Source: Actinopolyspora erythraea (lineage in GTDB: Bacteria > Actinomycetota > Actinomycetes > Mycobacteriales > Pseudonocardiaceae). From it: DNA of 64,000 nt. Below, piece by piece: positions 7,245 through 32,058 of the stretch. Each line of letters begins with the position of its first letter. The first letter of the stretch is position 1. The notes beneath the pieces were generated by a model, which had not been told where the DNA came from, did not search any database, and saw only the letters and a program-made list of their open reading frames with translations. The DNA lies in the NCBI RefSeq assembly GCF_002263515.1, contig NZ_CP022752.1, positions 3,038,001 to 3,102,000 of the forward strand, read 5' to 3'. Both the position numbers and the translations under genes were made by a program.

Positions 7245-7976
7245 GTGGCTGAAGCACCGAAGGACGACGAAACGACAGAGGTGACGCGCGGGTCGGTACT
7301 GCGCGGTACCGCGGAGGTGGCGGCCGGGTCCGTGTCCGGAATGGTCATGGCGGGCGAGGCAGCCACCGAGTCCAAACCGGACGCGGCGACCAGCATCGCC
7401 GCGGCGGAGCGACTGGCGGCGAACCAGGACTCGTACCTGCGGCGCAAGCAGCTGTGGATGTTCGACGTGCTGGACGACGACGGCGACGGCGCGGTGACGC
7501 CCGCCGACACGATGCAGTTCGCGCACCGCCTCGCACGGCTGACCGGCCACACCGAGGACTCGCCGCGGGCGCAGCAGCTGGAAGCCACGGTGAACCGGAT
7601 CTGGCACGCGCTGGTGGTCAAACCCGCGTGGGTACCGGACCCGGAACGACTGGACAGGGAGCAGTTCGTCACGGTGATGGCGAACAGCGTGGCGGAGACG
7701 CCGGACAAGACGCTGCAGTACATCGGCGTGGTCACGAACCTGGCTTTCGCGATGGCCGACGAGGACAACGACGGACGGGTCACCCGGGACGACGGACTCC
7801 GGCTCGTCACGGAGGTGCTGCGCGTGGAGCGGGAGCACGCCGAGCACGCGTGGTCGGTGATGGACTCCGACGAGAACGGCTACCTCGGCTACCCCGAGAT
7901 CCTGATGGCGGTCACCGACTTCATCATCAGCATCGACCCGCAGGCACCGGGCAACCTGGCGCTCGGACGCATCTGA
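7245..7976 (+). CDS. EF-hand calcium-binding protein (calerythrin-like)
   Basis: A 243-residue soluble protein with three readable EF-hand loops: DDDGDGAVTPAD near residue 75, DEDNDGRVTRDD near 170 and DSDENGYLGYPE near 210; a fourth, degenerate site lies in between. The layout resembles prokaryotic calerythrin/sarcoplasmic calcium-binding proteins. GTG 7245 starts the frame. The stop is four bases before the PfaD-like gene, so it is the first gene of the Pfa-like operon. A calcium-dependent regulatory or buffering role in lipid synthesis is inference from position. Confidence 0.85.
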   Translation: MAEAPKDDETTEVTRGSVLRGTAEVAAGSVSGMVMAGEAATESKPDAATSIAAAERLAANQDSYLRRKQLWMFDVLDDDGDGAVTPADTMQFAHRLARLTGHTEDSPRAQQLEATVNRIWHALVVKPAWVPDPERLDREQFVTVMANSVAETPDKTLQYIGVVTNLAFAMADEDNDGRVTRDDGLRLVTEVLRVEREHAEHAWSVMDSDENGYLGYPEILMAVTDFIISIDPQAPGNLALGRI

Positions 7977-7980
7977 CGCC

Positions 7981-9504: not shown

Positions 9505-9521
9505 GAAACGGCAGAACGAAC

Positions 9522-17200: not shown

Positions 17201-17452
17201 TCCCGCCTCCTGTTGACCGGCTCGGACGGAGTGCTGCGACGGCACGACGTGGAGCGGGTCGACACGTTGCCGGGCACGGCCAACGCCGTCTACGGCCTGC
17301 CCGCAGGCGCCCGCGCCGCGGAGTGGCTGCCCCACATCGCCCTCAAGGAACACGTCGCCCGAACCACCGGCGTCCACCCGAGCACGGTCGAGGTGACCAG
17401 TCTCGACGACGTCAGCTGGGACGAGGACTCCGCCACCGTGAGGACCCCATGA
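14201..17452 (+). CDS. PfaC-like multi-hotdog dehydratase protein
   Basis: A 1,083-residue protein of tandem dehydratase/hotdog domains. Around residues 60-330 is a divergent hotdog region; around 390-560 is a FabA-like domain with VPRHVWFREQSG and EIALQPCGFL; around 580-730 is a second FabA-like domain with AHFFNDPVQPGSLGVEAM carrying the catalytic His; around 740-1030 is a polyketide-synthase-type DH fold (NLFHGPSFQYL). In Pfa systems these dehydrate and isomerise 3-hydroxyacyl-ACP, placing double bonds. It has no KS/CLF domain, unlike PfaC of marine bacteria. ATG 14201 overlaps the preceding KR end, and the reductase gene begins in its last codons. Confidence 0.88.
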   Translation: MDDQDFEVMPRAPRSHQPTPAPRSAAALISEQLRQATELHERFLATQASFHPSTTGTAVEPATEPPRTARATVELDGWYLDRAGRMTGGAVLDELLALWPQRDGVLDGELTFHHVLPAPGDQLLSSLTVTGAALRGEVDGHLSLHGSLSDDLDVPLPTEHPGAAFDTDAVTAFAEGRPADCFTGPEWELTRAHVRSPGIGSRRTLLLREVTAFDPDRGLTATGRTPPTTWHSPAALLEGGLQVMAFHLAATGRTIHHDGWRFEPLPEAPTRLRVLLNAPSGTPRYHLTVRSVTGTTAHADVVGTIDERVVLCAEGLAVRLVADTPLPHWKLLGPPAVQRTGDPVPLSALAGLRGHDDPAAASTGRIRYDHATMLTAAWGPRAEILPDASDDALRLPGPPYLFLTRVIELSVTHGDFRPGSSLVAEYDVPRHVWFREQSGTVPVAVLLEIALQPCGFLTALMNGGTADERLRIRNLDGRLSTVREVPSDVGSLRTTVELTDIEHWDGTTIETFRIHCEADGVTALEGTTVFALTSAEQLTTQTGLPATDHDRSRIALPCEHPVVDLRSRPARFFGHSARLPGQMLLMLDRLTGYWPDGGPAGLGRLRAECDVRAEAWYFKAHFFNDPVQPGSLGVEAMCQLLSCYLIQRGVDDGFRFEPVVPDSWTYRGQVLPSDALVTVELDVLDVELGPGGGHAEAEAWLWVDGRKIYHVPRLRVRVVPGAPDSPSTVDTVLDPRADTWLADHCPTWTVPAVPLMSTAELLARSAGDRAGRPVRVLRDLSMQRWLPVAEPVRLRATCTGEQTRLAVWHEAGSLSRFVPVATATVGFEPPPRPARFAPLADLADVPDPYENANLFHGPSFQYLTALRMGSTGASGVLEAERGSVPRGTLHQGLLDAALHTIPHDALHRWDPAIGSDRLAFPHRLSHLAVHEPLPDHGEIEVEARFAGTLPDDLVAIDIQMCRGEHVLVAFRTVVVHIPVGALTAVSGPERRAYLRDAAPDSRLLLTGSDGVLRRHDVERVDTLPGTANAVYGLPAGARAAEWLPHIALKEHVARTTGVHPSTVEVTSLDDVSWDEDSATVRTP

Positions 17453-18453
17453 TCCTGATCACCGGAGCCTCCGGTGCCGTCGGCTCCGCCCTGCTGCGCG
17501 AGCTGGACAGCACCGACGAGGTCATCGCGCTCACCCATCACAAACCGGTCGGCACCGCTTCCGTGCGCGGCGACGTGACCCGGCCCTGGCTCGGCCTCCA
17601 CCCGGCCGAGTACCGCGAGCTCGCGGCCAAGGTCGACGTGGTCGTGCACTGCGCGGCGGCCGTGAACTTCTCGGCCTCGCGCGAGCACCTGCACCGGATC
17701 AACGTCGTCGGCACCGGCCACGTCCTGCGGTTCGTCGCGGACGCCGAAGCCCGGCTCGTGCACGGCTCCACGGCGTTCATCGCCCGCGCGGGTGACGGCA
17801 CCCCCTTCGACGCGTACGCCGCCACCAAATCCGCGGGCGAGACCCTGGTCCGCGAATCCGGCCTGCCCGCCTGCATCGCCCGCATCTCCACCGTGGTCGG
17901 CGACGTCCCGCGACTCCAGGCGTTCCACTACCTGCTCGGTTTCGCGCTGTCCGGCCAGCTCCCCTTCCTGCCCTGCACGCCCGGCACCCGCGTCGACCTC
18001 GTCCCTCGGGACGCCGTCGCCGCCGCGCTGGCCGCCCTCGCCCACGACCACGACGCGCACGGTGACCACTGGCTCACCGCCGGCCCGGCCGCCCTGCCGA
18101 TGGAACGCGTCATCGAGATCGCCACCGACGCCGCTGCCGCCCGCGCCCAGGACGACGAAGAACTGCGCGACATCGACCAGACGATCTTCCACACCCGGCT
18201 GATCGATCCCGCGGTGGCCTCCACGGTGCTCACCGCCGTCCTCTCCCGCTCCTCCAGCTCCGCGGCACCCAGTGTCATCGAGCGCGCCGCCAACCTCATG
18301 ACCGCCTACGACAACGCCGAGCCGTTCCCCACCTCGCTGGGCCGGATTCCCTCCGGCCCAGCCGCTCCCAGCATCGAATCGAGTGAAACCGCCCTGCGCC
18401 ACCTGGTCGACTACCTCACCGGACTGCCCCGGCAGACCTGGGAACTGTCCTAG
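17449..18453 (+). CDS. extended SDR, thioester-reductase/acyl-reductase-like
   Basis: A 334-residue NAD(P)-dependent extended short-chain dehydrogenase: GASGAVGSALL at residues 5-15 is the dinucleotide loop, VHCAAAVNFSA the conserved Ala-rich turn, and YAATKSAGE carries the Tyr-x3-Lys pair. The whole resembles the NAD_binding_4 group that reductively releases acyl thioesters, more than sugar epimerases. It overlaps the dehydratase gene by four bases and has no thioesterase neighbour, so reductive release of the acyl chain to aldehyde or alcohol is a reasonable inference. It closes the operon. Confidence 0.75.
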   Translation: MILITGASGAVGSALLRELDSTDEVIALTHHKPVGTASVRGDVTRPWLGLHPAEYRELAAKVDVVVHCAAAVNFSASREHLHRINVVGTGHVLRFVADAEARLVHGSTAFIARAGDGTPFDAYAATKSAGETLVRESGLPACIARISTVVGDVPRLQAFHYLLGFALSGQLPFLPCTPGTRVDLVPRDAVAAALAALAHDHDAHGDHWLTAGPAALPMERVIEIATDAAAARAQDDEELRDIDQTIFHTRLIDPAVASTVLTAVLSRSSSSAAPSVIERAANLMTAYDNAEPFPTSLGRIPSGPAAPSIESSETALRHLVDYLTGLPRQTWELS

Positions 18454-18749
18454 ATGGACGCTATACCGCAGACACGTCGGGAAGTCGCCACTTTCGTTCG
18501 AAGGCCACCGCGCAGGCGCTGAGAACGAATTCCACGCGGCCCGAGAACGGAGGTGAACCCCTCCCAGCGTTTGCCCCGAAACAGCACCATCGCCGCGCAC
18601 TCCGGACGTCGACCGATCCCCACCGGCCCGGCACGTCCCTTCCGCCATTGCCGGTGATCCCGACAGCCGCACCTCCGGGAATGCACCGAAACCTCACCGG
18701 CCGCGTCCGACACCGCGGTCTCGGACACCAGCCCCACCAGCCCGTTCGC

Positions 18750-19561
18750 TCCCCCCCCTTGAGCGCCGGCCCACCCGCGCACCAGCCCGCCCCGGCACCC
18801 GTCGCAGTCGGCCCCGCCCCCAGCCGGGCACACCTGCCCGGCACCGGGCACGTGCTGCGCGCCGACCCCCTGGATCGTCATGGTGGTGGTGTTGAGCAGT
18901 GCGAAACCCTGTCCCTGAAGTTCTGACGGGACCACCTCCAGGAAGCGTCGTTGCAGGCCGAGCAGGTAGGCGGATCCCATGCCGGTGATCACGTACACCG
19001 CTAGGACCGCCGGATACGGCGGGTCCAGGATGAGCGCGATCGAAGGCGCGCCCATGACCAGCAGCAGTGGTAGGACGAGTCGTTCTCGAGTGGCAGGCGT
19101 GAACGCTGGTCCGATCACGAGGTCACCGATGAGCATGCCGACCGAGATGGCCGCCAGCAGAGGGCCGGTCTCCACCGGGCTGAACGCACGCTGCGCGGCG
19201 TACGGGATGAGCAGGCTTCCTGTTTGTGGCCAAGTACCCAGCGGGCAGACACTGGACCATGATCAGCTTGATGACGCCGGGGGCGGTGACGAGCGCGGCG
19301 TTACCTCGCGAGGTCTTACGCACGATAGACCCGCCCACGCGGACCACCTCGGTACGCGGCAGGAACAAGCTGCTGATCACCACCGCGAGGAGGTGCCCCC
19401 TGCGGTGAGCAGCATCGTCCGCTCCGGGCCCGGCCACATGATCAGCACCCCACCAGCGGCCATGCCCACCATCTGCGCCCCGACCGCGACCAGGTGACGC
19501 GGAACGGGGCGACCGCGAAGACCTGAGCATAAGTGGCCTTCGTCGTGAAATTATCGGTCAT
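18750..19561 (-). pseudogene. decayed MFS transporter
   Basis: Minus-strand fragments of one major-facilitator protein lie in several frames: start MTDNFTTKATYAQVFAVAPFR at 19561, then LIMWPGPERTMLLTAGG, then VVISSLFLPRTEVVRVGGSI and GVIKLIMVQCLPAGYLATN, then ETGPLLAAISVGMLIGDLVIG through VVPSELQGQGFALLNTTTM to about 18870. At least three frameshifts break it and the last helices are degenerate. It may once have served the thioesterase/NRPS region to its right. The 300 bases from 18454 to 18750 hold no gene I can support. Confidence 0.75.
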
Positions 19562-20189: not shown

Positions 20190-20885
20190 CTAGCCGAGAT
20201 CAGCCCGAACTGCACGGAACCATGATGCATAGGCGGGTGATCGAAGAAAGTCGGAGTGCCCCCCGGAGAAGACGTGTCGGGAAAACTCTCCGTGGGTAGC
20301 GTGTTCCCAATCACCGACTCCGGTATCCGAGGTCAACGGGTCCGAGTCCCCATGGACCGCCAAAATGGAGCAGTTTACCGGCCTGCACCGCAAGGTAGTG
20401 AACTGCCTGAGCAGACGCAGATCATGCATGGCGGTATCGATAATGACCTCTCGCCACTCATCTGACGGCAGGTCGGCTAACATAGCGGGATCGACACTGT
20501 CGAGATACGCAGCCGTGCCGGATGGTGTACTCGAAACTGCTTCCGACACCTCGAGCCGCATGGGTGCTGTGGCACCGACAACCACCAACGCGGAGATCTC
20601 TATGCCAAGCTCTTCCAGCTTCGCTGCGGTCGCATACGCAACGTAAGCACCAAAACTGTGTCCGAACAGCACTGAACGCGCCGATGCTCGACAGCTCGCC
20701 TGTGTGGTACATGATTGCACGATCTCCTCGAAGGACTCAGCGGCCGTACCGAAGTCCTTGCCGAAACGGCCAGGGTACTTGACGAGCCATGCCATTGGTT
20801 CAAGTTCTCGAATTATTGGTCGAAGCTCACCACCGAACGAACCTGCACCCGGAAAGAAAATCGTATCGCCAGAAATATCATCCAC
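20190..20885 (-). CDS. type II thioesterase
   Basis: A 231-residue alpha/beta hydrolase of the GrsT/RifR type: oxyanion region FFPGAGSFGGEL at the N terminus, nucleophile elbow LFGHSFGAYVAY, and a C-terminal Asp/His pair (HGDSDPL ... SGGHSDFL). Such enzymes clear or release acyl groups from carrier proteins. GTG 20885 is preferred because GGAGG lies five bases before it; the frame also opens at 20912 inside the permease end without a ribosome site. Last gene of an eleven-gene minus-strand operon. Confidence 0.85.
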   Translation of the reverse strand: MDDISGDTIFFPGAGSFGGELRPIIRELEPMAWLVKYPGRFGKDFGTAAESFEEIVQSCTTQASCRASARSVLFGHSFGAYVAYATAAKLEELGIEISALVVVGATAPMRLEVSEAVSSTPSGTAAYLDSVDPAMLADLPSDEWREVIIDTAMHDLRLLRQFTTLRCRPVNCSILAVHGDSDPLTSDTGVGDWEHATHGEFSRHVFSGGHSDFLRSPAYASWFRAVRADLG

Positions 20886-20908
20886 TGTTTCCTCCAAAAA
20901 GGTAAAAC

Positions 20909-22186
20909 TCACACACGCACGTCTTTCTTCTCAACCTTCGACGTCCAGCGATTAAGGACGCTAATTCCTATCCAGACCAGAAAGAACAATACCCAGGGAA
21001 ACCACATAGACGGCCCCGCAAGGATAGTCACCAGCAGAACCGTCACAGCACACATCAAGCTGACGACTCGCGCCATGCTCCCACGTGCGAGCTTGGCGAA
21101 CGATGCAGCACCAACACCGTACAGCACGAAGTAGATTCCGCCAGACAGGACGAACAACAGCTCGAACCGAAAGAGGCCACTGGATCCGAGAAGCGCGATT
21201 ATCGCCAATATCGAGCCGACCACCACTACCGACGTCACTGGGTTAAGATCCCGATCACGCACCTTGCTCAGCAAAGCTGGAAGGTAGCCACTACGCGAAA
21301 GACCAAACACCAAACGAGACAATGCCAGCACCGAAGCGAACACATTCGCCGAAATACAAGCGATCACCAACAACAGAGTTGCGGGACGTGCCAAATCACC
21401 TAGCGATCTTTCTGCGATGATCAAAAGTGGTGCCGAGTTCAGCGTGCTGTCCGTGGAGTCCGCGGCGGCGAACAGCCCCAACAGTAGAAGCGAGTACAGG
21501 ACAACCACGATCACATAAGAGGATACGAAAATACGCGGAATAAGATCGGAACGTTTGTGCTCCTCGAATGTGAAAGACACCGTCTCCCAACCGGTGAATG
21601 CTACATAGACAGCAGTAAGTACGCTTCCAAAACTGCTCAACGAGAGAAGCTCCATGCTCGAAGTCGGTGGCTCAATCCCGTGAACACTCAGTACGATCAC
21701 TGCCGTACAAGCGACCATCACGAACAAACCGAGGATCAAACCTACCTGCAGCTTTCCCGATACATTCGCACCAGCAGACGCGGCCACAGTAGCACCGACC
21801 AGGACCACAATTGGGAACACCCACGCCAAAGCGCTTATACCAGAAAACTCCGCTACGTAACGGCCTCCCGTTATAGCTGTCGCCGGAATTCCGGTGGTCA
21901 GCGCAAAAGTCGCGAGCAATCCTGAGGTGCGCCCAGTAGTCCCCCCGAGAGCTACTTCGGAATAATAAGCAACACCCGATGCCGATGGATAGCGCCGACC
22001 GAGCCAAGCATAGCAATAAAGCAACGGAACAACAGAAACCGCAGCAGCAGCCCAGGGTATCCACGCTGATTTACCAAGCTGGTGATAACTCGTTCCAGGA
22101 AGGATCATCATCCCACTGCCCAGAATTGTAGACAACGCTACGAATGTGCCTACGGTGCCACCCATAGTTTTTTGTAGCTTGTCCAC
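20909..22186 (-). CDS. APC-superfamily amino acid permease
   Basis: A 425-residue polytopic membrane protein with about 12 hydrophobic segments. Its first segment has the APC signature (ALSTILGSGMMILPGTSY), and TGWETVSFTFEEHKRSD resembles helix 6 of amino acid-polyamine-organocation carriers. In a biosynthetic operon it could import a precursor amino acid or export the product. GTG 22186 is chosen because GAGGAG lies six bases upstream, just at the end of the preceding thioesterase gene, whose stop is one base away. The frame could open at 22210 but with less support. Confidence 0.85.
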   Translation of the reverse strand: MDKLQKTMGGTVGTFVALSTILGSGMMILPGTSYHQLGKSAWIPWAAAAVSVVPLLYCYAWLGRRYPSASGVAYYSEVALGGTTGRTSGLLATFALTTGIPATAITGGRYVAEFSGISALAWVFPIVVLVGATVAASAGANVSGKLQVGLILGLFVMVACTAVIVLSVHGIEPPTSSMELLSLSSFGSVLTAVYVAFTGWETVSFTFEEHKRSDLIPRIFVSSYVIVVVLYSLLLLGLFAAADSTDSTLNSAPLLIIAERSLGDLARPATLLLVIACISANVFASVLALSRLVFGLSRSGYLPALLSKVRDRDLNPVTSVVVVGSILAIIALLGSSGLFRFELLFVLSGGIYFVLYGVGAASFAKLARGSMARVVSLMCAVTVLLVTILAGPSMWFPWVLFFLVWIGISVLNRWTSKVEKKDVRV

Positions 22187-22187
22187 A

Positions 22188-22907
22188 CTACGCTCCTCGT
22201 ACAGACGCAATTACCGAACCGACAGTTCTTTCCAGAGTAGCAAACGGCGTCCCATTGAGCATATGACCTCCATGTTCCACTATCAGGTGAAATTCATGCG
22301 AGGCCCAGTCTCGCCACATGGCGCACCGAGTCGTCCCGATAAACCGATCATCGCGTGTCGCCAGGACGTGCAGATTTCCAATGCTGTTGATTGCGCTCAC
22401 AGACATAGCAAGAAAATCAGCAACAATGGCGTCCGACCGGAGACTAGAAGATACCTCAGAAAGCATTTCTTTGTCACTGATCAAATCTTCTGGAAAACCA
22501 TCATTGGCGAGAATTTCACCGATTTCGGAATCTGAACATTCAGACATCGTCGGTATTCGTCCTTCAGCGTCGGGACACGGTGTGTTTATTAACAGCGTCC
22601 CGATTGGTCTAGCAAGCCGCGAACCGAGGTCACCGGATAGACAGAGCGCCGACAGTCCCCCCATACTGTGCCCCACCAGGACTACATGCTCTGGGCACGT
22701 TCGATCCACGACTTGCTGAATTTCGTCAAGAGTCCCTTCATACCAGTCTCGTGATACGAGAGCGTCAACTGAATCCGCATTCAGCATACCAACGTATACC
22801 GCACCGCGCCGAGCAGCACAGCTTTCCAGCCACTGGAACGTGGTGCTGCCAGCACCAGCGGCCGGGAAGGATACTATCAAGCTCTCGACTTCCCCAAATT
22901 CAGTCAC
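22188..22907 (-). CDS. second thioesterase/alpha-beta hydrolase
   Basis: A 239-residue type II thioesterase-like hydrolase: SFPAAGAGSTTF near the N terminus, nucleophile elbow LVGHSMGGLSAL, and a C-terminal HGGHML carrying the putative catalytic His. It shares little detail with the other thioesterase of the operon, so the two probably have different substrates. GTG 22907 overlaps the P450 stop (GTGA). Directly following a free A domain, a free PCP and a P450, it is a good candidate for releasing a beta-hydroxy amino acid from the carrier, as NikP2 is thought to do in nikkomycin biosynthesis; this assignment is inference. Confidence 0.78.
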   Translation of the reverse strand: MTEFGEVESLIVSFPAAGAGSTTFQWLESCAARRGAVYVGMLNADSVDALVSRDWYEGTLDEIQQVVDRTCPEHVVLVGHSMGGLSALCLSGDLGSRLARPIGTLLINTPCPDAEGRIPTMSECSDSEIGEILANDGFPEDLISDKEMLSEVSSSLRSDAIVADFLAMSVSAINSIGNLHVLATRDDRFIGTTRCAMWRDWASHEFHLIVEHGGHMLNGTPFATLERTVGSVIASVRGA

Positions 22908-24136
22908 GATTTCAGGTCCTCTGCTTTGGTCACCTCGACCTGCAGCTCTGTCAACCCGAGCATAAAGTTGGAATGGAGCCGCTGCGGTGGCTCGACCACC
23001 ACGAACGCCTTATCCCAAGAGGCCAATTCCTCAATGAACGTTTGAATCTCCAGTGTCGCTACAGGAGCACCGATACAACGGTGGATACCAGCACCGAACG
23101 CGATTTGTTTATTATTGGGTCGATCAATCAAGAATGATGAGGGCTGCTCGAATACCGAAGCATCCCGGTTCGCTGACATGTTCCACAGAGTCACGAAACT
23201 CCCGGCAGGAATGACATGATCGCCGACTGCAAAATCATCCACCGCCAGACGCTGTACATAGCTATTAGTTGAAGTCCACCTCAGGAACTCCTGTGTAGCA
23301 ACTTCACAAGAAACTTTACCATCGACAAGCTTTCGCCACTCTGCCCATTCATTGTTGATGGTGTCGACGGTCAGACTGGCCGTGTGGGGCGTGGTCTCGT
23401 TTCCACCGACCGCGACATTCAACCCGTTAAGCAGAGCGACATCGCGCGGCATCTCACCTGTCGCGACACACTGAGCGAGGAAACCAATCATGTCATCGGA
23501 CGATTCCATCCTGATACGTTGATCTATTAGCTCGCTCATAAAGTCGAGAACGTCAAGTTGCGAATCCACCAGCGAGTCAAGCGGAGAATTGCCAGCATAC
23601 ACCTCATCGCGGTAGCCGATCATCGTCCTCGTCGCTTCCAAAAGCCTCTGCGCATCGTCCGTACCAATCCCGAAAAGTGCCTCCAGCACCCCCCTCGGCA
23701 ACTCCGGGGCGACCACCTGACTGAAGTCAAGCTGATCACCGACCGAAAGGTCAGCCAGTACACTACGAATGTTCTTACGGACGATGTCACCGATCTTCAT
23801 GAGCATCGCCCGGTTAAACCCGGCCGACTTGATCGGCTTCTTAATAGCGCTGTGCGCAGGAGGATCCGCCACAATCAGCATACGTCCAGAAGCCGAGTCT
23901 TTCTCTGGCCGGTACGAACCATCAATCATGGTCCCGTACGAGGAACTCAATCTGGCATAATCGACGTAAGCCGAGTACACGTCTTCGTAACGCGTCAGCG
24001 CGTAGAACTCATAACCGTCAGATCGACGATGGATCGAGACAGGATGGTTCTCACGGAGATTCGCCAGGTACGTCCATGGATCGTCGTTTGCAAAAAATTC
24101 CGCCGAGTAAAGCGGACTATTCTCAACGATCAGCAT
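22904..24136 (-). CDS. cytochrome P450, probable aminoacyl-PCP hydroxylase
   Basis: A 410-residue P450 with I-helix VGGNETTPH (residues 243-251), ExxR at Glu283-Arg286, and heme loop FGAGIHRCIGAP with Cys354. The GGNETT version of the oxygen-binding motif is common in P450s of the CYP162/163 type that hydroxylate amino acids tethered to a carrier protein (NikQ, NovI). Its ATG overlaps the free PCP gene by 14 bases with a GGAGAAG ribosome site, and a free A domain precedes that, so PCP-bound beta-hydroxylation of an amino acid is the most economical reading. No ferredoxin is encoded nearby. Confidence 0.88.
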   Translation of the reverse strand: MLIVENSPLYSAEFFANDDPWTYLANLRENHPVSIHRRSDGYEFYALTRYEDVYSAYVDYARLSSSYGTMIDGSYRPEKDSASGRMLIVADPPAHSAIKKPIKSAGFNRAMLMKIGDIVRKNIRSVLADLSVGDQLDFSQVVAPELPRGVLEALFGIGTDDAQRLLEATRTMIGYRDEVYAGNSPLDSLVDSQLDVLDFMSELIDQRIRMESSDDMIGFLAQCVATGEMPRDVALLNGLNVAVGGNETTPHTASLTVDTINNEWAEWRKLVDGKVSCEVATQEFLRWTSTNSYVQRLAVDDFAVGDHVIPAGSFVTLWNMSANRDASVFEQPSSFLIDRPNNKQIAFGAGIHRCIGAPVATLEIQTFIEELASWDKAFVVVEPPQRLHSNFMLGLTELQVEVTKAEDLKS

Positions 24137-24356
24137 TTTCTTCTCCGATCAGATCGACTATACCTGCCGGGGTCCGCCCTCCAAAGAAGACATGACCAGG
24201 AACCTTTACACCTGTCCGCTCTTTGAGGCGTGCTCGACACCGCAAGATCGCCAAAGAGTCGACCCCCGCAGAGAAGATGTCAGTATCTTCTGCGATTTCT
24301 GCTTCCGAGAACTCCTGAACACACTCTATTATTTTTTCAGTTGTAATCTCAACCAC
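24123..24356 (-). CDS. free-standing peptidyl/acyl carrier protein
   Basis: A 77-residue carrier domain: TDIFSAGVDSLAIL includes the phosphopantetheine site Ser34, followed by helix II and III sequences (RCRARLKERTG, GRTPAGIVDLIGEEN). GTG 24356 shares one base with the stop of the adenylation gene (TAGTG), and the P450 begins inside its last codons, so all three are tightly coupled. It should be loaded by the adjacent adenylation enzyme. No phosphopantetheinyl transferase is found in the window, so one encoded elsewhere must activate it. Confidence 0.88.
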   Translation of the reverse strand: MVEITTEKIIECVQEFSEAEIAEDTDIFSAGVDSLAILRCRARLKERTGVKVPGHVFFGGRTPAGIVDLIGEENADR

Positions 24357-25774
24357 TATTCTTGCTCCTCATTTTTTGCGAAACGCGCACTCATCAGGGC
24401 GGTTGTGTCAATCTTTCCGCTAGGTTTGACCGGAAACCGATCCACTAGCTCTACCTTGACAGCATTAGAGAACTGTTTGACAACAGATTCGATCCGCATC
24501 CGGACAGAGAAATCAATCAGCTGCTCTTGGTCAACTCGCACGAAAGCGAAGGTGTGCTTCTCGTTCTGGACGACTCGACAGTCGGAAACCTCCGGGAGAA
24601 CCACCACATCGCGCTCCAAGGCAGCCGAGTTGACACGCATCCCATTCACCTTGATCTGACTGTCCAACCGGCCAGCGAACACGAGACTTCCGTCGTTGTC
24701 GACTTGTACAACATCGCCGGTTCGGAAAGATGCTTCTCCGTCGTCCGCGCTGAATCGGGTGCTGAGACTGCCGTGCTCGATGTATCCCAGACAGACCAAC
24801 GGCCCGTCGATGAGGAGTTCGTGACAGCCATCCGCACGATCTCCAGGGTCTGCCAGTCTCTGCTTGCACCCTTCCAACGGCTTGCCGATCGGAATCGGCC
24901 CGGTAGTAATGTCGTCGGACAACTCGTACTTGTGCGTGGCGAACGTGGCTTCGGCGGGGCCGTAGAGGTTAATGAACTGATTCGTCAGTCTGGCACGGCG
25001 AGCCTGCTGATAGGTTGACACTCGGAATCGCTCACCGCCACTGTACAACCAAGGAACATCCGAGATGCATCCAGGCAGAGACTCGACAACCGTGGCGAGC
25101 ACGGCAGCGGGTAGCAGCATACGATCGATACCATACTTTTTCGACAGTTCTGGCCAGTCGAAGACGTCCTCGTTCACGTTCGGCATGCAGACGACGGCAC
25201 CTTCCGCTGCCACCGCTTTCCACGTATCGAACCACCAGCCGTCGTAAGTGGGCGTCGCGAAGCTCCCGGAAACCAGTCTACCGCTCGTCGGTACTTCCAG
25301 ATCACGGCATCTAAAGAGCGCCTGCAGGTTACCCCTGGTTACTCCGACGGCTTTCCGGCTACCCGTGCTTCCGGAAGTGAAGTTCACGGCCACAATTTCG
25401 TCGGGTAATCGGCTTCTGGGGAAACGTTCCGCTGCATGCGTTTCGCATGCAACCCCGGTCGGTCGGTCACCGTCAACAGACACAATGAGGTCTGGACGAA
25501 CATGCTCGAGCTCGCTCTGTCCGAGACCGCCATCGTCTGCCACTGCAACACAACCGGCTCGCCAGGAGGCCAACTGTCCCGCAAAACACCCCAGTTTCGA
25601 GGGAGATCGGACCAGCACGACCCGGACCTCATCCTGACTGCCAATGACTTCCTCGATCGACTGGGCCAGTTCGTCGACCCGCTTCCAGCTGTACTCGGTA
25701 CCGTTCTCGATCCACAGTGTTTCCGGGGACTTCCAACGGTCACCGTGAATCACGTCGCTCCAGTTATAATTCAT
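24356..25774 (-). CDS. free-standing NRPS adenylation domain
   Basis: A 472-residue adenylate-forming enzyme without a carrier domain. Core motifs: A3 NFTSGSTGSRKAVGV, A4 region TYDGWWFDTW with the Asp that binds alpha-amino groups, A5 NLYGPAEATF, A7 FRTGD, A8 GRLDSQIKVNGMRVN, and A10 PVKPSGKID with the catalytic Lys. It probably activates an alpha-amino acid and loads the adjacent PCP; the substrate cannot be read with confidence. ATG 25774 overlaps the asparagine-synthetase stop as ATGA, which makes it the likely start rather than the upstream in-frame ATG at 25837. Confidence 0.88.
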   Translation of the reverse strand: MNYNWSDVIHGDRWKSPETLWIENGTEYSWKRVDELAQSIEEVIGSQDEVRVVLVRSPSKLGCFAGQLASWRAGCVAVADDGGLGQSELEHVRPDLIVSVDGDRPTGVACETHAAERFPRSRLPDEIVAVNFTSGSTGSRKAVGVTRGNLQALFRCRDLEVPTSGRLVSGSFATPTYDGWWFDTWKAVAAEGAVVCMPNVNEDVFDWPELSKKYGIDRMLLPAAVLATVVESLPGCISDVPWLYSGGERFRVSTYQQARRARLTNQFINLYGPAEATFATHKYELSDDITTGPIPIGKPLEGCKQRLADPGDRADGCHELLIDGPLVCLGYIEHGSLSTRFSADDGEASFRTGDVVQVDNDGSLVFAGRLDSQIKVNGMRVNSAALERDVVVLPEVSDCRVVQNEKHTFAFVRVDQEQLIDFSVRMRIESVVKQFSNAVKVELVDRFPVKPSGKIDTTALMSARFAKNEEQE

Positions 25775-27546
25775 ACCTTCAGTCCCAGTTCGTCCATCAC
25801 CATACTGATACTGATCAGACTCAGTCGAGGGTCCCATTTGTCCGGCGTACGGTTTGTATTCAGATCATCTAGACAATCCAGCGAAAAGATGCCGCTGGTC
25901 GCGACGAGCTCTCGCCAACTTGTCCAGGTAGATTCGTCGACGACCGTGGACAACTCGTATGCTGTGAATCCTTGCTTGGCACGTTGCAGAACCGATTGAG
26001 GAACAATATCTGCGTAAGCTGCCTTCAGACAGGCCTTGCCTTCAAAGTCGGACACCTTCTCACTGTCTCTGACCTGCAGCGCCAGGGAAACCACAGAGTT
26101 CGCTAGGAATGGATAGCGCCCTTCAACTGAGTTGGCCATGAGCATTGCGTCGCCATGGTCACCGAGAAGATGACCAGACAGCTGGACATACACGTCAGCG
26201 ATCGAACGGAGCTGCATATGCGACAGCGACCTGGTTTCGTGCTCAGCGAAAGGAATTAATCGATTCCGCCAAAACTCGTTACCTGAAATAGCTTCCCTGG
26301 CGGTGCGAGTAAGGCAGCGGTCTCGTCGTAGCGCGACCTTGTTCCAGTCTACCTCCCAGCTGAAATCTGCCCTCCCCCATGCCTGCTCATTCTCAGCGCA
26401 AGCCTCCCGCGATCTCTTGCGCGCACTATCGAACGCGTAGGAATCATAGCCAAAGAAGAGCTCATCAGCACCCTCCCCGGAAACGACACCCTTGATTCCG
26501 GTCTGCTGAACCTCACGCGACAACATCATCGCGGCGACATTGTACGTCTCGCGCTGCGGGTAACAGCAGTAGCGCACCATCTTCTCGAAATCCGAGGCGA
26601 TATCAGCCGGGTTGCACTGGATCCGCCGGTGTTCACTTCCGACAGCTTCCGACACCTCACGCTGAAAAGGTCCCTCATCCAACGCAGCATTGTCGAACGC
26701 CGCCGAGAATGTCTTGACTGGTTTCTCCAGGACACGAGCCGCTTCCATGGCAAGAGCGGTGGAGTCGAATCCACCACTCAAGTAAGAACCGATCTCCACA
26801 TCCGCACGCAGGCGGTCACGGACAGACTGCTGTAATCGGTCGCGTACGTCCTCTCCCGCGACAGAATCCTCCACCGCAGCGAATTCCCCGTATCGCCAAT
26901 ATCGAGTGGTTTCCTGACTGTTCTCACTGAATCTGACAACACATCCTGGTGGGACAGCTTGCACTTCCTCGACCAGTGTCCGCGGCGCGACTATATTCCC
27001 CAACGCCAGATATTGGTCGACTGCGCCGATATCCAATCGCCACATGTGAGGAACACACTGCACCAACGACTTGAGCTCTGAGCAGAAGTGAACACGGTGA
27101 TCAAGCACCGTGTAGTACATCGGACAGATTCCGAAGCGATCCCTGGCAAGATACAGCGAGTTCTCCGCACGGTCGTGGATCACAGTTGCGAACTGTCCGT
27201 CTATCAACTCGAGACCTTCGAGTCCGTGGTGCGCGACGAGTTCCGGGATGACCGCTACGTCGACACCGTTGGCCCATCGGACGTCCCCGAACCTCCTGCG
27301 AAGATCCTCGAAATTGAACACCTCACCGTTGGTCATGGCTACGAACCGACCACTACGGTCCTCAACGGGTTGCCAGCCGTCCACCAACCCGGTCATACTG
27401 AGACGTCCAAGTTTCATCGACAGCGTCGGTGTATCCAGAGAATAAGTCTCGTCAGGTCCACGGTGGAGCAGTCGGGAATTCATAGCCGCCGCGACCGTGC
27501 GGTCCAAGCGACCGTCCGGAGCGAAGGTCCCGCAAATGCCGCACAT
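25771..27546 (-). CDS. asparagine synthetase B-type amidotransferase homologue
   Basis: A 591-residue two-domain protein. It begins MCGICGTF, so Cys2 is the class II glutaminase nucleophile after Met removal; HRGPDE and the MTNGEVFNF region follow. The synthetase half has the PP-loop SGGFDSTAL and GEGADELFFGYDSY. Length and motifs fit a working AsnB, but biosynthetic homologues also make amides or beta-lactams by the same adenylation chemistry. ATG 27546 places Cys2 correctly; GGAG lies 12 bases upstream, within the end of the A-PCP gene. Its position between two adenylation genes and the lack of a condensation domain suggest a product-specific amide-forming role. Confidence 0.88.
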   Translation of the reverse strand: MCGICGTFAPDGRLDRTVAAAMNSRLLHRGPDETYSLDTPTLSMKLGRLSMTGLVDGWQPVEDRSGRFVAMTNGEVFNFEDLRRRFGDVRWANGVDVAVIPELVAHHGLEGLELIDGQFATVIHDRAENSLYLARDRFGICPMYYTVLDHRVHFCSELKSLVQCVPHMWRLDIGAVDQYLALGNIVAPRTLVEEVQAVPPGCVVRFSENSQETTRYWRYGEFAAVEDSVAGEDVRDRLQQSVRDRLRADVEIGSYLSGGFDSTALAMEAARVLEKPVKTFSAAFDNAALDEGPFQREVSEAVGSEHRRIQCNPADIASDFEKMVRYCCYPQRETYNVAAMMLSREVQQTGIKGVVSGEGADELFFGYDSYAFDSARKRSREACAENEQAWGRADFSWEVDWNKVALRRDRCLTRTAREAISGNEFWRNRLIPFAEHETRSLSHMQLRSIADVYVQLSGHLLGDHGDAMLMANSVEGRYPFLANSVVSLALQVRDSEKVSDFEGKACLKAAYADIVPQSVLQRAKQGFTAYELSTVVDESTWTSWRELVATSGIFSLDCLDDLNTNRTPDKWDPRLSLISISMVMDELGLKV

Positions 27547-27550
27547 TAAG

Positions 27551-29266
27551 CTACACGCTCCGTTCTTGTAGTCGGTCGGCAAGGACCTTCAGGTTTTCAG
27601 CTCGAAGCACGTCTCGCACCCCAGCATCCACCCAACCTAGTTCTTTTATCTTGTTAATCAAGATTACTGCTGATGCTGAGTCCCCACCAAGGTCGAAGAA
27701 ATTGTCGTGTAGCATGGCGTCGTCCACCCCGGTAAGTTGACGCGCAAGATGCAAAACCTGCTGAGCAGATGACATTTTTTCATCAAAACAGTCGACCTCA
27801 AGGCGAATCGTTTGAAGAGCATCGCGGTCAACTTTCCCGTTTGACGTATAGGGAAAGGCGTCAATCCGCTTGATGACTGAGGGGATCTTGTACGAAGCAA
27901 GGACATCCTCGAGATGGTTCCGCACCGCGCGAGGCTCCACGTTACCTTGATAGTAACACACCAAAGCATCTGGCTCGAAAGTTTTATCACCCTCGTGAGA
28001 CTCGACAGTCACCACCGTATCCATAACAGAGCTGATCTCGCACACCGCGATCTCTATCTCACCCGGGTCGAGCCGATAGCCTCGCACTTTCACTTGCCGA
28101 TCCAATCGCTCAACGAAGTAGAGCTGACCTTCTCGACGTTCGACGATGTCGCCGGTATGGTAAATTTTACGTCCTTCTATATCGGTAAACCGTTGCACGC
28201 CTTGCGCGGTTAAATAGCCGACTGCGACGCTCTCTCCTGTAATGACGAGTTCACCTCGACTCGCAACTTCCTCCGAGGAACGTTGCTCGTCCGCTGGTGC
28301 CAATCCCTGGATATAGTAGTCGCAGTCGCCCACGATGTCCCCGAGTGGTACAGATCGAGTACACTCGCCAGGCGTCAGCTCACCGCTTAGGAAGTTGCAT
28401 ACTGTAGTCTCAGTTGTCCCGTAAGCGTTGTGGAAATTCGCCACCTCGGACCATTTCTGCACCACGTTGGGTCGGCATGCTCCACCACCGTTGACCACAT
28501 GGCTGAGGCTCATCGCACTGCTGGGCTCTGTCGCGGTCAGCGCGAAGGGCGTTGTCTTGAGGTGAGTGATCCGAAACTTTTCCAGCGTGTTCTGGAGTAC
28601 GGTGCCCGGGATCAACTGAGCCTCGTCCAGCACGACGAGACACGCTCCTGCAGTCAATGTCCAGAGAATTTCGGTGATACATCCGTCGAAGGTTAGGCGG
28701 GCAAACTGCAGCGTCCTGGATTGCGACCCCACGGACAGGCGATCCACGTGGTATTGGATCACCGAAGTGAGTGGGTCCGTGCGGACCAGAACACACTTGG
28801 GATCACCGGTGGAACCTGACGTATGGATCGCGTAGCCGATCTCGTCCTCGACAGACGGGAGTCCGACCGTCGGGTGGCCCGCAGGTAAGTACCATCCCGC
28901 CGGAATTTCGGTTAGATACGCCCTGTTTTCACTAGCATGATATCGGACAATCACTTTAATACCCAGAGATGCAACTTTCTCTGCGTTCGAGGATTCACTA
29001 TCGCGGGCATCGATAAAGACAAACGGACGCCTGGCCTTCAACGCGCCGACCATCGCAACAATCGCGCCGAATTTTCGATCAGCCTCGATTCCGACGAATT
29101 CTCCGGGCGAGGTACACTTCTCGAGTTGGTGCACGAACTCCCGGAGTTGTTTACCGAAATCTCGATAAGTAATGCCCCCTCCGGGTGTATCAATCGCATC
29201 GTTGTCCGGATAATTACTCACGGCATCGTCAATAAGTTCTATGATCGACATCTGTCGAATTCTCAC
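27551..29266 (-). CDS. NRPS A-PCP didomain protein
   Basis: A 571-residue protein: adenylation domain with A3 HTSGSTGDPKCVLV, A4 LTFDGCITEILW (substrate-binding Asp present), A5 NAYGTTETTV, A7 YHTGD, A8 RLDRQVKVRGYRLDPGEIE and A10 PYTSNGKVDR, then a carrier domain with DNFFDLGGDSASA (Ser near 530). There is no condensation, epimerisation or thioesterase domain. It should load an alpha-amino acid on its own PCP. GTG 29266 has GGAAG about eight bases upstream; an internal ATG at 29251 lacks a site. Spaced 75 bases after the SDR gene, the largest gap in the operon. Confidence 0.88.
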   Translation of the reverse strand: MRIRQMSIIELIDDAVSNYPDNDAIDTPGGGITYRDFGKQLREFVHQLEKCTSPGEFVGIEADRKFGAIVAMVGALKARRPFVFIDARDSESSNAEKVASLGIKVIVRYHASENRAYLTEIPAGWYLPAGHPTVGLPSVEDEIGYAIHTSGSTGDPKCVLVRTDPLTSVIQYHVDRLSVGSQSRTLQFARLTFDGCITEILWTLTAGACLVVLDEAQLIPGTVLQNTLEKFRITHLKTTPFALTATEPSSAMSLSHVVNGGGACRPNVVQKWSEVANFHNAYGTTETTVCNFLSGELTPGECTRSVPLGDIVGDCDYYIQGLAPADEQRSSEEVASRGELVITGESVAVGYLTAQGVQRFTDIEGRKIYHTGDIVERREGQLYFVERLDRQVKVRGYRLDPGEIEIAVCEISSVMDTVVTVESHEGDKTFEPDALVCYYQGNVEPRAVRNHLEDVLASYKIPSVIKRIDAFPYTSNGKVDRDALQTIRLEVDCFDEKMSSAQQVLHLARQLTGVDDAMLHDNFFDLGGDSASAVILINKIKELGWVDAGVRDVLRAENLKVLADRLQERSV

Positions 29267-29341
29267 TTTCCCGTCTTCCTATGAAGAAAAAGCGCCGCAT
29301 GAATAGAACTGCGGTTATACATACCGCTATCAACCTCTTGG

Positions 29342-30106
29342 TCAAATGGACTTCATGTATCCTCCATCGCATCGAATGCCGGCGCCGGTGATGTAATCCG
29401 CTTTCTCGCTCGCGAGAAAAGAAACCAACTCTCCTATGTCTTCCGGAGTCCCGTAACGCCTCAAAGGTATCTCTTCTAGAGTTCTATTCTTTATCGATTC
29501 AACACTTTTACCGGATTCCTCGGCTGCAGCGACATCGATCGAACGTAGGCGATCAGTATCGACCTTTCCTGGAATCACATGATTAACTGTCACACCAAAC
29601 TGACTCACACTGTTGGCCAGTAGTTTCAGATACGATTGCACCGCTGATCTTGCGATCGTGGATCCAGCAAGACCGTTGACAGGAGTGGACAAAGAACTAG
29701 ATGTGATACCGATGAAGCGACCCCAGCGGTTTTTTTTCATCGCCGGCAAAGTTGCTTCGACAGTACGCTGAATCGAGAACAGCATGAGTTCCATCGCTTG
29801 CTGGATCTGCAAGCTGGAAAGTTCGTCGATCGTGCCAGGATCGAACCCCGGCGAGTTGAGCAGGACTATATCATATGGTCCCGTATCAGCGACTTTATCG
29901 CCAACGCTGGCAGAGTTTCGGAAATCGCAAGCAAAAGACCTATTATCGGAGCCAGGAAGACTCTGTGCGACTTCCTTGGCACGAGCTCGGTCATTGCCAG
30001 AAATGGTCACGACGCAGCCGTACCCCGCCAACGATCGCGCGACACCTAAACCAATTCCTCTGGTACCGCACAACACGAGCGCTTGTTTTTTATCGAGACA
30101 GTACAT
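29342..30106 (-). CDS. atypical short-chain dehydrogenase lacking the usual Tyr-Lys pair
   Basis: A 254-residue protein with the Rossmann fold of classical SDRs: nucleotide loop CGTRGIGLG at about 13-21, LLNSPG in the NNAG position, ITSSS strand, and a C-terminal GAGIRCDGGYMKSI. Where the catalytic YxxxK should stand (before the AV of the long helix) the sequence reads STIARSAV, so Tyr is Ser and Lys is Arg. A small group of SDRs shares this S-x3-R form, so the reaction may be non-standard. ATG 30106 has GAAGG five bases upstream. It lies between the FAH-family enzyme and the A-PCP gene. Confidence 0.85.
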   Translation of the reverse strand: MYCLDKKQALVLCGTRGIGLGVARSLAGYGCVVTISGNDRARAKEVAQSLPGSDNRSFACDFRNSASVGDKVADTGPYDIVLLNSPGFDPGTIDELSSLQIQQAMELMLFSIQRTVEATLPAMKKNRWGRFIGITSSSLSTPVNGLAGSTIARSAVQSYLKLLANSVSQFGVTVNHVIPGKVDTDRLRSIDVAAAEESGKSVESIKNRTLEEIPLRRYGTPEDIGELVSFLASEKADYITGAGIRCDGGYMKSI

Positions 30107-30145
30107 TGATACCTTCAGTTTCTTGCTCGTGTTTATTCAATCTTG

Positions 30146-30991
30146 TTATCGCACTACATGCGTGAGGGTTCCGACCTGTTCGACAACTGAATTAATCGAG
30201 TCTCCGGGATTGATTACCGCAGCTCCTGGTGTTCCGGTACAAATCACCGTTCCCGGCTCAAGCGTCCTACCTGCAGTGAAATACTCAACGAGATAACTAA
30301 GATCATATTTCATCTCAGAAGGATTCGCTGAAGCGATGGTCTCTCCGTTCTGAACGGTGGCTATGCAGAGAGAGTCGAGACTTTTCTCGTCGAACTCATC
30401 CAGAGTCACCAAGACGGGGCCTATACTACAGAATGTGTCAAAACCTTTCGCCCAAGGTATGTAGCGCGGATTCTCGCGTATGACGTCCTCCGCAGTCATG
30501 TCCAGGACCGCCGTGACACCCGCGATCACTGATCGCCAGCTTTCGCGTCTTACGTTCTTGCATACAGCGCCGATGACCAGCCCCAGCTCTGCTTCCGCAG
30601 TTACTCGACCGGACTGGCTCGGCAACTCGATGTACTGGCCGTTGTCGATGAGACAGCTGGCAGGCCTCAAGTAAGAGCCCGGCCCCGAATCAGGCTGCTC
30701 GGATTCCAGATCATCGGAGTGACGTTGGTAGTTGAGTCCGGCTCCCCAAATATTAGCGTCGCGGTCGGCGATCGTGGCGACCTGTTCCAGGCTGAGGTCT
30801 ATCGTATCGAGCTCACTTCCGTGAGACTCGACGAGCTTCGTCAGTTCACGCAGCTTCTGATCGGCTACGACATCGCTGAGGCGAGTGACGTTCTCATAGC
30901 CTGTGAAGTCGCCGAGCGGAAACCATCTGTTATGATGTCCTATTACTAGCTGATTACCGCTGATATCTGATTTGATCCTTGCCAGCTTCAC
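30146..30991 (-). CDS. FAH-superfamily hydratase/decarboxylase
   Basis: A 281-residue protein of the fumarylacetoacetate hydrolase fold: AEAELGLVIG supplies metal-binding carboxylates, GVTAVLDMTAEDV the next acidic loop, AKGFDTFCSIGPVLVT the conserved substrate strand, and CTGTPGAAVINPGD the C-terminal turn. Relatives include 2-oxopent-4-enoate hydratases, 2-oxohept-3-enedioate isomerase/decarboxylases and acylpyruvases, all acting on 2-oxo acids with a divalent metal. Its start overlaps the aldolase stop by four bases. The pairing with a 4-hydroxy-2-oxovalerate-type aldolase points to shared 2-oxo-acid chemistry. Confidence 0.85.
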   Translation of the reverse strand: MKLARIKSDISGNQLVIGHHNRWFPLGDFTGYENVTRLSDVVADQKLRELTKLVESHGSELDTIDLSLEQVATIADRDANIWGAGLNYQRHSDDLESEQPDSGPGSYLRPASCLIDNGQYIELPSQSGRVTAEAELGLVIGAVCKNVRRESWRSVIAGVTAVLDMTAEDVIRENPRYIPWAKGFDTFCSIGPVLVTLDEFDEKSLDSLCIATVQNGETIASANPSEMKYDLSYLVEYFTAGRTLEPGTVICTGTPGAAVINPGDSINSVVEQVGTLTHVVR

Positions 30992-32058
30992 CGCGTTCCT
31001 CCTAGTGTCGGCTGGCCAGAGTGAGAGTTAGATTGCATCTCAGAACAGTCGGCGATCTGCCGTGCTGCGGCCCGCATATCGGCCTTGCTTGGGCTTTGCG
31101 CTGCTAGAGCGACCGCGACTTCCATGAGACGGGCAGGGTCGGTGTCGTACTCAGCAGAAAGCTCTTCGACCAGTGAAAAGTAGCCCGAGTGGATCCCGAT
31201 CACGCTACCGAGCACCTGCATTTCTCGATCCTCTGGGATAGCAGCCATGTTGACCCGGCAGAGCTCAGCAAGCTTGGCTAGCTTCTTGTAGTCGAATCTG
31301 TCAGTGTCCAGGACAGTCAGGAGACCAGCCAGTGACTCGATCTCCGCGTTTCCAGCGCCTCGGCCAATACCGTTAAGCGTGCCGTCGACAATTGTCGCGC
31401 CAGCTTCAATAGCTGCAATGCTGTTTACGTTGGCCATACCAAGATTGTTGTGACCGTGGAACCCGATCTTCGAGAAGTGCTTCCTGACTGCATTGACGTA
31501 CTCGTGGACGTCTCTTGGAAGCATCGCACCATAAGAGTCTACAATGTACAATCCAGCGATGCTCGGACTGACACCGTCGAGCAAACTAAGTAGCTCGTTC
31601 ACTGGAGTAGCGCTTGACTTCATCAAGTTTAGGTAGACTTGTTCACAAACGTCAGTTGCCCGCTGGATATACTCGAGGTTTTCAGGAACTCTATCTGGCT
31701 CCATGCCGACTCGAACAAATGACATTCCACGATCGCACAGTTTCGCCACAGTATCCAGTTGCGTGAATTCTGGTTGTGCGAACATCCCCCAGGATTTGTT
31801 AGCCAGAACCGAAGAGGCTATTTCACACCACTTATAGTGGTCGATATTGCATGGCTTTATTCCCGATTTTTCTGCCTCGACGCCGAAGCCGTGACCGATT
31901 TCAACCTTGCAGATAGGTGTTTCATTAATTCGCCCGAGGAGGTCTACGACAAATTTTTCTTCGAATTGGAAGTCGACAGAATACGAGCCATCTCGGAGCG
32001 TACAGTCGAGTAACTCGATTTTCTCTGTTTTTATCAACTGGTCGGATATCGTGTACAT
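30988..32058 (-). CDS. DRE-TIM (HMGL-like) 4-hydroxy-2-oxoacid aldolase
   Basis: A 356-residue TIM-barrel metal-dependent enzyme. LLDCTLRDGSY near residue 18 is the DRE-TIM signature, and GFHGHNNLGMANVNSIAAIE then DGTLNGIGRGAGNAEIE match the metal-binding HxH and glycine loop of 4-hydroxy-2-oxovalerate aldolases (MhpE/DmpG) more than isopropylmalate synthases. It should join or split a 2-oxo acid and an aldehyde. A comparable aldolase, NikB, serves nikkomycin assembly. ATG 32058 has GGGG and GGAG upstream. It is the first gene of the operon; no acetaldehyde dehydrogenase partner is present. Confidence 0.85.
   Translation of the reverse strand: MYTISDQLIKTEKIELLDCTLRDGSYSVDFQFEEKFVVDLLGRINETPICKVEIGHGFGVEAEKSGIKPCNIDHYKWCEIASSVLANKSWGMFAQPEFTQLDTVAKLCDRGMSFVRVGMEPDRVPENLEYIQRATDVCEQVYLNLMKSSATPVNELLSLLDGVSPSIAGLYIVDSYGAMLPRDVHEYVNAVRKHFSKIGFHGHNNLGMANVNSIAAIEAGATIVDGTLNGIGRGAGNAEIESLAGLLTVLDTDRFDYKKLAKLAELCRVNMAAIPEDREMQVLGSVIGIHSGYFSLVEELSAEYDTDPARLMEVAVALAAQSPSKADMRAAARQIADCSEMQSNSHSGQPTLGGTR

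Follow-up and report, generated by a model that had tools for sequence, protein, structure and literature searches.

A conserved nonribosomal peptide synthetase-like operon without a condensation domain in Actinopolyspora erythraea, a possible two-armed factory for carrier-bound amino acids

What does an operon make when it appears to activate two amino acids and encodes nothing canonical to join them? We examined this question for an eleven-gene operon resembling nonribosomal peptide synthetase (NRPS) systems in a 64,000-nucleotide stretch of DNA (the window; contig NZ_CP022752.1, positions 3,038,001 to 3,102,000) from Actinopolyspora erythraea, whose genome (genus Actinopolyspora) is a single contig of 5,243,930 bases. 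An earlier, sequence-only reading had described the operon as a candidate undescribed natural product cluster; its observation was confirmed, and its interpretation was supported in part. The operon appears to be a system for carrier-bound amino acid tailoring with an unusual first arm and a natural difference in one thioesterase, TE1. On balance, we think it is probably a two-armed carrier-protein amino acid factory and not a truncated peptide assembly line. Every substrate and reaction named below is our inference, set against observed gene content, synteny, motifs, selection, arms, and the pairing of TE1 with a linked gene.

Gene content of the operon

The eleven minus-strand open reading frames (ORFs) reported at 20190 to 32058 were recovered, and Pfam found the domains that had been stated for them. 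A denotes adenylation, C condensation, PCP peptidyl carrier protein, and TE thioesterase.

30988..32058, minus strand: ald, DRE-TIM (HMGL-like) aldolase, first gene, arm 1 (PF00682, 4.1e-27)
30146..30991, minus strand: fumarylacetoacetate hydrolase (FAH)-family enzyme, arm 1 (PF01557, 1.3e-44)
29342..30106, minus strand: short-chain dehydrogenase/reductase (SDR), optional (PF13561)
27551..29266, minus strand: A-PCP didomain, arm 1 (PF00501 and PF00550)
25771..27546, minus strand: AsnB, glutamine-dependent asparagine-synthetase-like amidotransferase, arm 1 (TIGR01536, 339.5 bits against a cut-off of 267.1)
24356..25774, minus strand: free-standing A domain, arm 2 (PF00501; TIGR01733, 162.6 bits, under the cut-off of 317.4)
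24123..24356, minus strand: free-standing PCP, arm 2 (PF00550, 7.5e-12)
22904..24136, minus strand: cytochrome P450, arm 2 (PF00067)
22188..22907, minus strand: TE1, thioesterase, arm 2 (PF00975)
20909..22210, minus strand: amino acid permease, candidate exporter, arm 2 (PF13520)
20190..20912, minus strand: TE2, type II thioesterase, grouped with arm 1 (PF00975)

Two start sites were corrected by comparison with relatives, that of the free A to 25774 and that of AsnB to near 27546 (MCGICG...). The tightly packed genes had been described as overlapping. At most junctions they do overlap, by several bases at most, but gaps of about 39 bp and 75 bp separate FAH from SDR and SDR from A-PCP, respectively. 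The window copies of the operon genes contain no internal stops. As had been claimed, the operon lacks a C domain: Pfam found neither a condensation nor a polyketide domain in the eleven proteins, and the operon was not classed as a condensation-dependent NRPS assembly line.

Distribution, gene order, and selection

A search with the free A returned 178 homologues at E <= 0.001. Among the best 120 of these, 89 were at 44 to 91% identity, and those below them were at 35% or less, one partial fusion excepted. For the P450, identity dropped from 65% to 45% among the best 120 of 348 homologues, short fragments aside. In sampled genomes, at a threshold of E <= 1e-60, the free A was present in 5 of 390 from the window's family and in 3 of the 10 catalogued under its genus (its own genome included in both counts). 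Across the class it was found in 2 of 394 genomes, both among the family's five. It also occurred in 3 of 392 genomes of the genus of Streptomyces sp. col6, in 2 of 300 of the family of Paractinoplanes durhamensis, and additionally in one uncultured bacterium. Plasmid records gave no match.

We compared 11 loci, namely the window and ten relatives (G050, G054, G383, G019, G996, G952, G800, MAG41, G1450, and G1408). G054 is a 99% complete genome, probably of Actinopolyspora xinjiangensis; MAG41 is the uncultured bacterium (labelled Corynebacteriales); and the G800 operon is broken across two short contigs, one of 8.2 kb and one of 6.3 kb. All genes except the SDR, ten in number, keep an identical order in the nine untruncated relatives, and both G800 contigs agree with that order. 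In MAG41, G996, G952, and G800, no SDR gene lies between FAH and A-PCP. Between the window and two same-genus relatives, the ratio of nonsynonymous to synonymous substitution (dN/dS), a simple count with no significance test, was 0.06 to 0.36 across all 11 genes. The operon is real, conserved, and under selection. No description of a matching cluster was found in the literature searched, which supports the word undescribed, but the cluster is not unique. It appears to belong to a family of natural-product clusters in several actinobacterial groups, with a fixed ten-gene set and near-constant specificity codes. Members occur in Actinopolyspora and two further genera of the same taxonomic family, in Streptomyces, in the Paractinoplanes family, and in the uncultured bacterium.

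Loci that separate the two arms

Three loci without the free A (G192, G928, and G085) were reached by a search with the aldolase. The aldolase, FAH, A-PCP, AsnB, and TE2 genes form a single run in G192, and within the 40 kb around this run the free A, PCP, P450, TE1, and permease all lacked a match. In G928, a diverged arm 1 adjoins a second A-PCP and a P450, and the code of the second A domain, DTFLYGLVAK, is related to that of the free A. G085, probably Amycolatopsis alba, carries aldolase, FAH, SDR, A-PCP, and AsnB within an NRPS cluster. The large synthetase of this cluster terminates in an A-less C-PCP, and a C-A-PCP-TE protein is encoded there as well. TE2 accompanies arm 1 in G192 and G928, and G085 showed nothing close to it. 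Directly beside the G192 cassette, on the opposite strand, are alpha and beta genes of nitrile hydratase (L128:6018-7294).

These loci carry arm 1 genes without the free-A operon, which suggests that arm 1 is a cassette that can be reused to supply a building block. Arm 2 is the free A, PCP, P450, TE1, and permease. The observation that nothing canonical joins the two amino acids is better explained by two self-contained arms, since arm 1 occurs alone in G192 and within an NRPS cluster in G085. Most likely, each arm has a carrier of its own, on which a single amino acid is activated and modified. With arm 1 present in at least one true NRPS cluster, working out its product would identify a building block shared by several pathways.

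Arm 1 enzymes

The earlier proposal that two amino acids appear to be activated was supported. Both A domains (free A and A-PCP) keep Asp235 and Lys517, which we take to be the marker positions of amino-acid-activating A domains, and the features of NRPS-type activation are present (the A-domain Asp, the A10 Lys, and the phosphopantetheine Ser of the PCP). Specificity codes were read provisionally, with a position scheme and a GrsA fragment. The A-PCP code is DGTKVGAVCK in the window, follows DGTK[VIL]GA[VI]CK in 10 of 10 loci, and is DGTKIGAVCK in both G085 and G928. We take the DxTKxG pattern to resemble Asp/Asn codes, a resemblance only, and the A-PCP would load an Asp/Asn-like amino acid. 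Pfam found no extra domain in the A-PCP.

The aldolase belongs to the DRE-TIM fold family (PF00682). Its best match in the Protein Data Bank (PDB) was 3dxi, a putative aldolase, followed by 4-hydroxy-2-oxovalerate aldolases (4lrs, 7.5e-23). The residue after TLRDGx is Tyr in the operon aldolase and in 3dxi and His in 4lrs; the Tyr is invariant in all 22 aligned sequences, query included. The His is presumably the catalytic base in 4-hydroxy-2-oxovalerate aldolases (BphI/DmpG). With Tyr in its place the enzyme was not assigned to the BphI/DmpG type, and because of this replacement its reaction may differ from that of a 4-hydroxy-2-oxovalerate aldolase. The FAH-family enzyme best matched 1gtt, an isomerase/decarboxylase of 4-hydroxyphenylacetate degradation. 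Together, the aldolase and the FAH-family enzyme would probably build or extend the carbon skeleton of the arm 1 amino acid. YxxxK is the catalytic motif of classical SDRs. It was found in none of seven SDR copies (the window and six orthologues), in which the catalytic Tyr and Lys are gone, and the glycine-motif pattern tried also failed in all seven, so that the protein was not classed as a classical SDR reductase.

AsnB has the hallmarks of a glutamine-hydrolyzing enzyme: the glutaminase Cys (MCG) and the ATP-site motifs (SGGxDS) are intact in all 11 loci, and its TIGR01536 score exceeds the cut-off. It would move ammonia from glutamine onto a carboxylate, giving a carboxamide. TE2, with a Ser nucleophile in all 11 loci, would then clear or release the arm 1 amino acid. 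A different role for AsnB would be that of an amide ligase joining both residues, in the manner of beta-lactam synthetase or lasso-peptide cyclase. Both of these enzymes are AsnB relatives, and AsnB is among the best conserved operon proteins (66 to 73% identity outside the genus). However, beta-lactam synthetase and lasso cyclase have lost the glutaminase Cys that is kept here in every locus, and the best matches were the asparagine synthetase 1ct9 and the "hydroxyamidotransferase" 7ylz, with beta-lactam synthetase matching only weakly (4.2e-6). AsnB was accordingly rejected as an enzyme of either type, and we consider the ligase explanation very unlikely.

Arm 2 enzymes

The free A carries the code DGFLYGLFAK in the window and DGFL[YF]GLFAK across the 11 loci. 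DGFLFGLFAK was found in 86 of the 89 free-A homologues and the other three differ at one or two positions; the window has Y for one F. To us the code looks hydrophobic, again a resemblance only. The free PCP has the DSL motif with the phosphopantetheine Ser in all 11 loci. The free A would put one fixed, probably hydrophobic amino acid on this carrier.

The best solved relative of the P450 was 4l0e ("P450 monooxygenase"; E = 6.2e-58, next match 2.3e-51), which we take to be P450sky. P450sky is a hydroxylase of carrier-bound amino acids. None of seven NCBIfam matches reached its cut-off; the motifs GGNETT and FGxGxHxCxG are present in all 11 loci, and the gene order A-PCP-P450-TE is conserved among the relatives. 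The operon P450 likely acts on a PCP-bound amino acid, and oxidation of this residue would most likely be a beta-hydroxylation. TE1, where its nucleophile is Ser, would then free the modified amino acid and the permease would export it. The best NCBIfam match of the permease was an L-methionine/branched-chain amino acid transporter (111.6 bits, below the cut-off of 284). In the window, both amino acids would leave as free forms, at least one of them exported by the permease.

The TE1 nucleophile and linked condensation domains

The TE1 nucleophile is Cys (TGC, motif GHCMGG) in MAG41, G1450, and G1408; the remaining eight loci, the window among them, have a Ser nucleophile (AGT, AGC, or TCC). 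The three Cys-TE1 loci are exactly those in which genes for a C-PCP protein and a major facilitator superfamily (MFS) transporter lie next to the operon, on its upstream side in MAG41 and on its downstream side in G1450 and G1408. All three C-PCP proteins contain HHxxxDG. No C-PCP homologue was found in the 64-kb window or in the flanks of G050, G054, G383, G019, G996, and G952, which with the window make seven of the eight Ser-TE1 loci; none was found on the two contigs of the eighth, G800, which are too short for judgement. A C gene belonging to the operon elsewhere counts against the sequence-only reading, and this applies in part: such a gene lies beside the operon in 3 of the 11 loci, but no homologue of it was found in the window or in G054.

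When five core proteins were joined to build a tree, MAG41 grouped with the three loci of the Streptomyces genus (0.983), and G1450 and G1408 grouped together (0.997) apart from it. The MAG41 grouping was less strongly supported in a tree of AsnB only (0.766). Because MAG41 does not group with G1450 and G1408, the combined Cys-TE1/C-PCP trait would have been gained twice, or gained and lost.

TE1 fits the type II thioesterases (RifR/RedJ-like) in its fold and its nucleophile-Asp-His triad. D187 and H215 are invariant in the 11 loci, and we propose a Ser81-Asp187-His215 triad with putative roles for the Asp and His. The TE1 model (pLDDT 87.8) has a thioesterase fold, with type II thioesterases and the SulM TE among the best folds. 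The SulM TE had the top TM-score (0.73) among the 50 Foldseek matches listed and came first by Z, tied with TesA and RedJ; ObiF1 was in the VIA-align list. These fold matches raise another explanation, in which TE1 forms a strained ring after beta-hydroxylation, with Cys closing a beta-lactone as in ObiF and Ser hydrolyzing. The ObiF and SulM TEs use Cys and close a beta-lactone or beta-lactam, and Cys-to-Ser changes in them gave mainly hydrolysis, as stated in parts of the respective reports (PMC6668435, PMC11298585). GHCMGG in 3 of 11 loci is consistent with such a role. The likeness, as far as those parts of the reports go, is that of an alpha/beta-hydrolase TE (PMC6668435, PMC11298585), but TE1 is free-standing, has about 17% identity to the SulM TE, and carries Ser in the window. 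We regard ring formation by TE1 as distinctly unlikely.

CmaE and SyrC reportedly use a Cys nucleophile. Having Ser, the window TE1 was assigned neither to Cys aminoacyl shuttles of the CmaE type nor to Cys ring-formers of the ObiF/SulM type. Excerpts of two papers describe CmaE and SyrC as aminoacyl shuttles (PMC8748450, PMC7966384).

Within the two-armed scheme, Ser-TE1 loci would need no C domain, and in loci with C-PCP and MFS genes the Cys-TE1 would hand the modified residue on, or cyclize it. A tentative extension is that the TE1 nucleophile switches one conserved actinobacterial pathway between two natural forms, with Ser giving a free modified amino acid and Cys, together with C-PCP and the exporter, giving a dipeptide or beta-lactone; we hold this to be doubtful, if worth pursuing. 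If true, evolution would have converted an amino acid factory into a peptide synthesizer, or back, through one residue and one gene, and both products would be undescribed. The Ser/Cys pairing offers a route to what controls release versus transfer in carrier-protein chemistry.

Points against the two-armed scheme and a role for condensation in trans

Several points weigh against the two-armed factory. The operon contains no aminotransferase, and because of this the step from the aldolase and FAH-family enzyme to an amino acid is incomplete. Plain Asp loading followed by amidation would yield ordinary Asn, for which no such pathway is needed. The reading of the A codes is provisional, and the Asp/Asn assignment is one of resemblance. 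The next matches of the P450 are of the CYP125 type, which is not known to act on carrier proteins. Few independent lineages, about seven, underlie the Ser/Cys pairing, and Ser in TE1 does not prove hydrolysis, since LgnA, a type II TE with Ser, shuttles aminoacyl groups according to part of its published description (PMC8748450). Condensation domains occur outside the operon as well. In G996, a Ser-TE1 locus, the operon contig also carries, at a distance of about 25 kb, a condensation domain with 33% identity to that of C-PCP (L133:9955-11331, near the contig end). The window genome has PF00668 matches at 11 places elsewhere, and because of these, condensation help may be given in trans in this species. 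G383 also blurs the picture, with a 55% match to C-PCP far from the operon in another cluster that has its own A domain. This unlinked cluster (L113:1153-16414) encodes carbamoyl-phosphate synthase subunits, an ornithine-cyclodeaminase-like protein, C-A-PCP, and an MFS transporter.

The same domains could point to an ordinary dissociated NRPS, in which a C domain encoded elsewhere joins both residues in trans to give a dipeptide. The C-PCP genes adjoining the operon in MAG41, G1450, and G1408, the 11 matches in the window genome, and the G996 domain all favor it. However, neither PF00668 nor, at E <= 1e-10, the C-PCP protein found a match in the G054 genome, and because of this its operon should work without a condensation domain; the operon dN/dS is nevertheless well below 1. 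In addition, of the eight loci that lack a linked C-PCP, all but the truncated G800 showed no homologue in the flanks examined, and the closest C gene of G383 serves a cluster with its own A domain. We consider a dissociated NRPS unlikely.

Comparison with known systems

In nikkomycin biosynthesis, NikP1-NikQ-NikP2 (A/PCP, P450, and thioesterase) are said to produce a free beta-hydroxy amino acid, and a DRE-TIM aldolase is reportedly employed too. The operon differs in that A and PCP are separate genes, in its additional AsnB, FAH, and second A-PCP, and in having no nucleoside genes. We know of no AsnB and no aldolase/FAH arm in the coronamic acid pathway, compared to which the operon adds a second A-PCP arm and a P450 and has Ser in the window TE1. 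The likeness to CmaA/CmaD/CmaE is that an A-activated amino acid is held on a separate PCP for tailoring and that an acyltransferase (AT)-like enzyme shifts it between carriers, as outlined in a portion of PMC8748450.

For the cystobactamid linker unit (CysH/CysB), an Asn-type residue bound to a PCP is modified by a stand-alone module and carried by a shuttle to a module whose own A domain is inactive, as the relevant part of PMC7966384 has it. The inactive-A module is comparable to the A-less C-PCP in G085, MAG41, G1450, and G1408. CysH has an inserted AMDH domain in that account (PMC7966384), whereas the operon has no extra A-PCP domain by Pfam and has a separate AsnB and aldolase/FAH. Legonindolizidine LgnA/LgnB/LgnD likewise combine a stand-alone A-T protein with a type II TE and with a C-T partner that receives its load in trans, again from a partial account (PMC8748450); there LgnA is a Ser shuttle, whereas the operon family copies beside C-PCP have Cys. 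AsnB resembles TsnB9 and FzmA, which in the section of PMC6133997 concerned have glutaminase and synthetase sites and transfer nitrogen onto a carboxylate. Unlike for TsnB9 and FzmA, hydroxylamine or hydrazine genes were not recognized in the operon.

Base composition and surroundings

The operon has a GC content of 0.542 (0.585 at third codon positions), compared to 0.662 in 33 kb of flank. The drop was 0.12 to 0.13 in all three Actinopolyspora loci, and in the other eight, operon and flank agreed within about 0.03 (the G800 flank being only 826 bp). The proposal that the operon is acquired DNA was thus upheld for this genus: because the three genus copies are low in GC and the eight others are matched, the operon looks acquired in Actinopolyspora, from a donor that would not be among the relatives. 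Neighbors on both sides are common to the window copy and G054, and none of them was found in the 40 kb examined of G050. Low GC, the patchy occurrence within the genus, and an SDR without the classical motif might also suggest a decaying or non-functional acquired island. However, the dN/dS values of all genes, the uninterrupted window copies, and the conserved catalytic motifs in the other enzymes examined make this scarcely credible.

A tyrosine-recombinase-type integrase gene lies about 5 kb from the operon (36913-38187, minus strand; PF00589, 4.9e-11). A second low-GC stretch (GC about 0.47 to 0.57) spans 39 to 43 kb of the window and contains a 699-amino-acid ORF without a Pfam match (39459-41558, plus strand). 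On the other side, an ORF at 18450-19175 (minus strand) looks by eye like a truncated MFS transporter; it drew no match from Pfam, nor a convincing one to the MFS proteins of the C-bearing relatives. Genes resembling a polyunsaturated-fatty-acid-type or related polyketide synthase (PKS) set occupy 7245-17452 (plus strand) and end about 2.7 kb from the operon; in the other genera examined, nothing was seen that links this set to the operon. The set comprises EF-hand, FabD-helical/NMO (trans-enoylreductase [trans-ER] type), AT/acyl carrier protein (ACP)/ketoreductase (KR), and FabA-like dehydratase proteins, of which the AT/KR and FabA proteins show 92 to 93% identity in G054.

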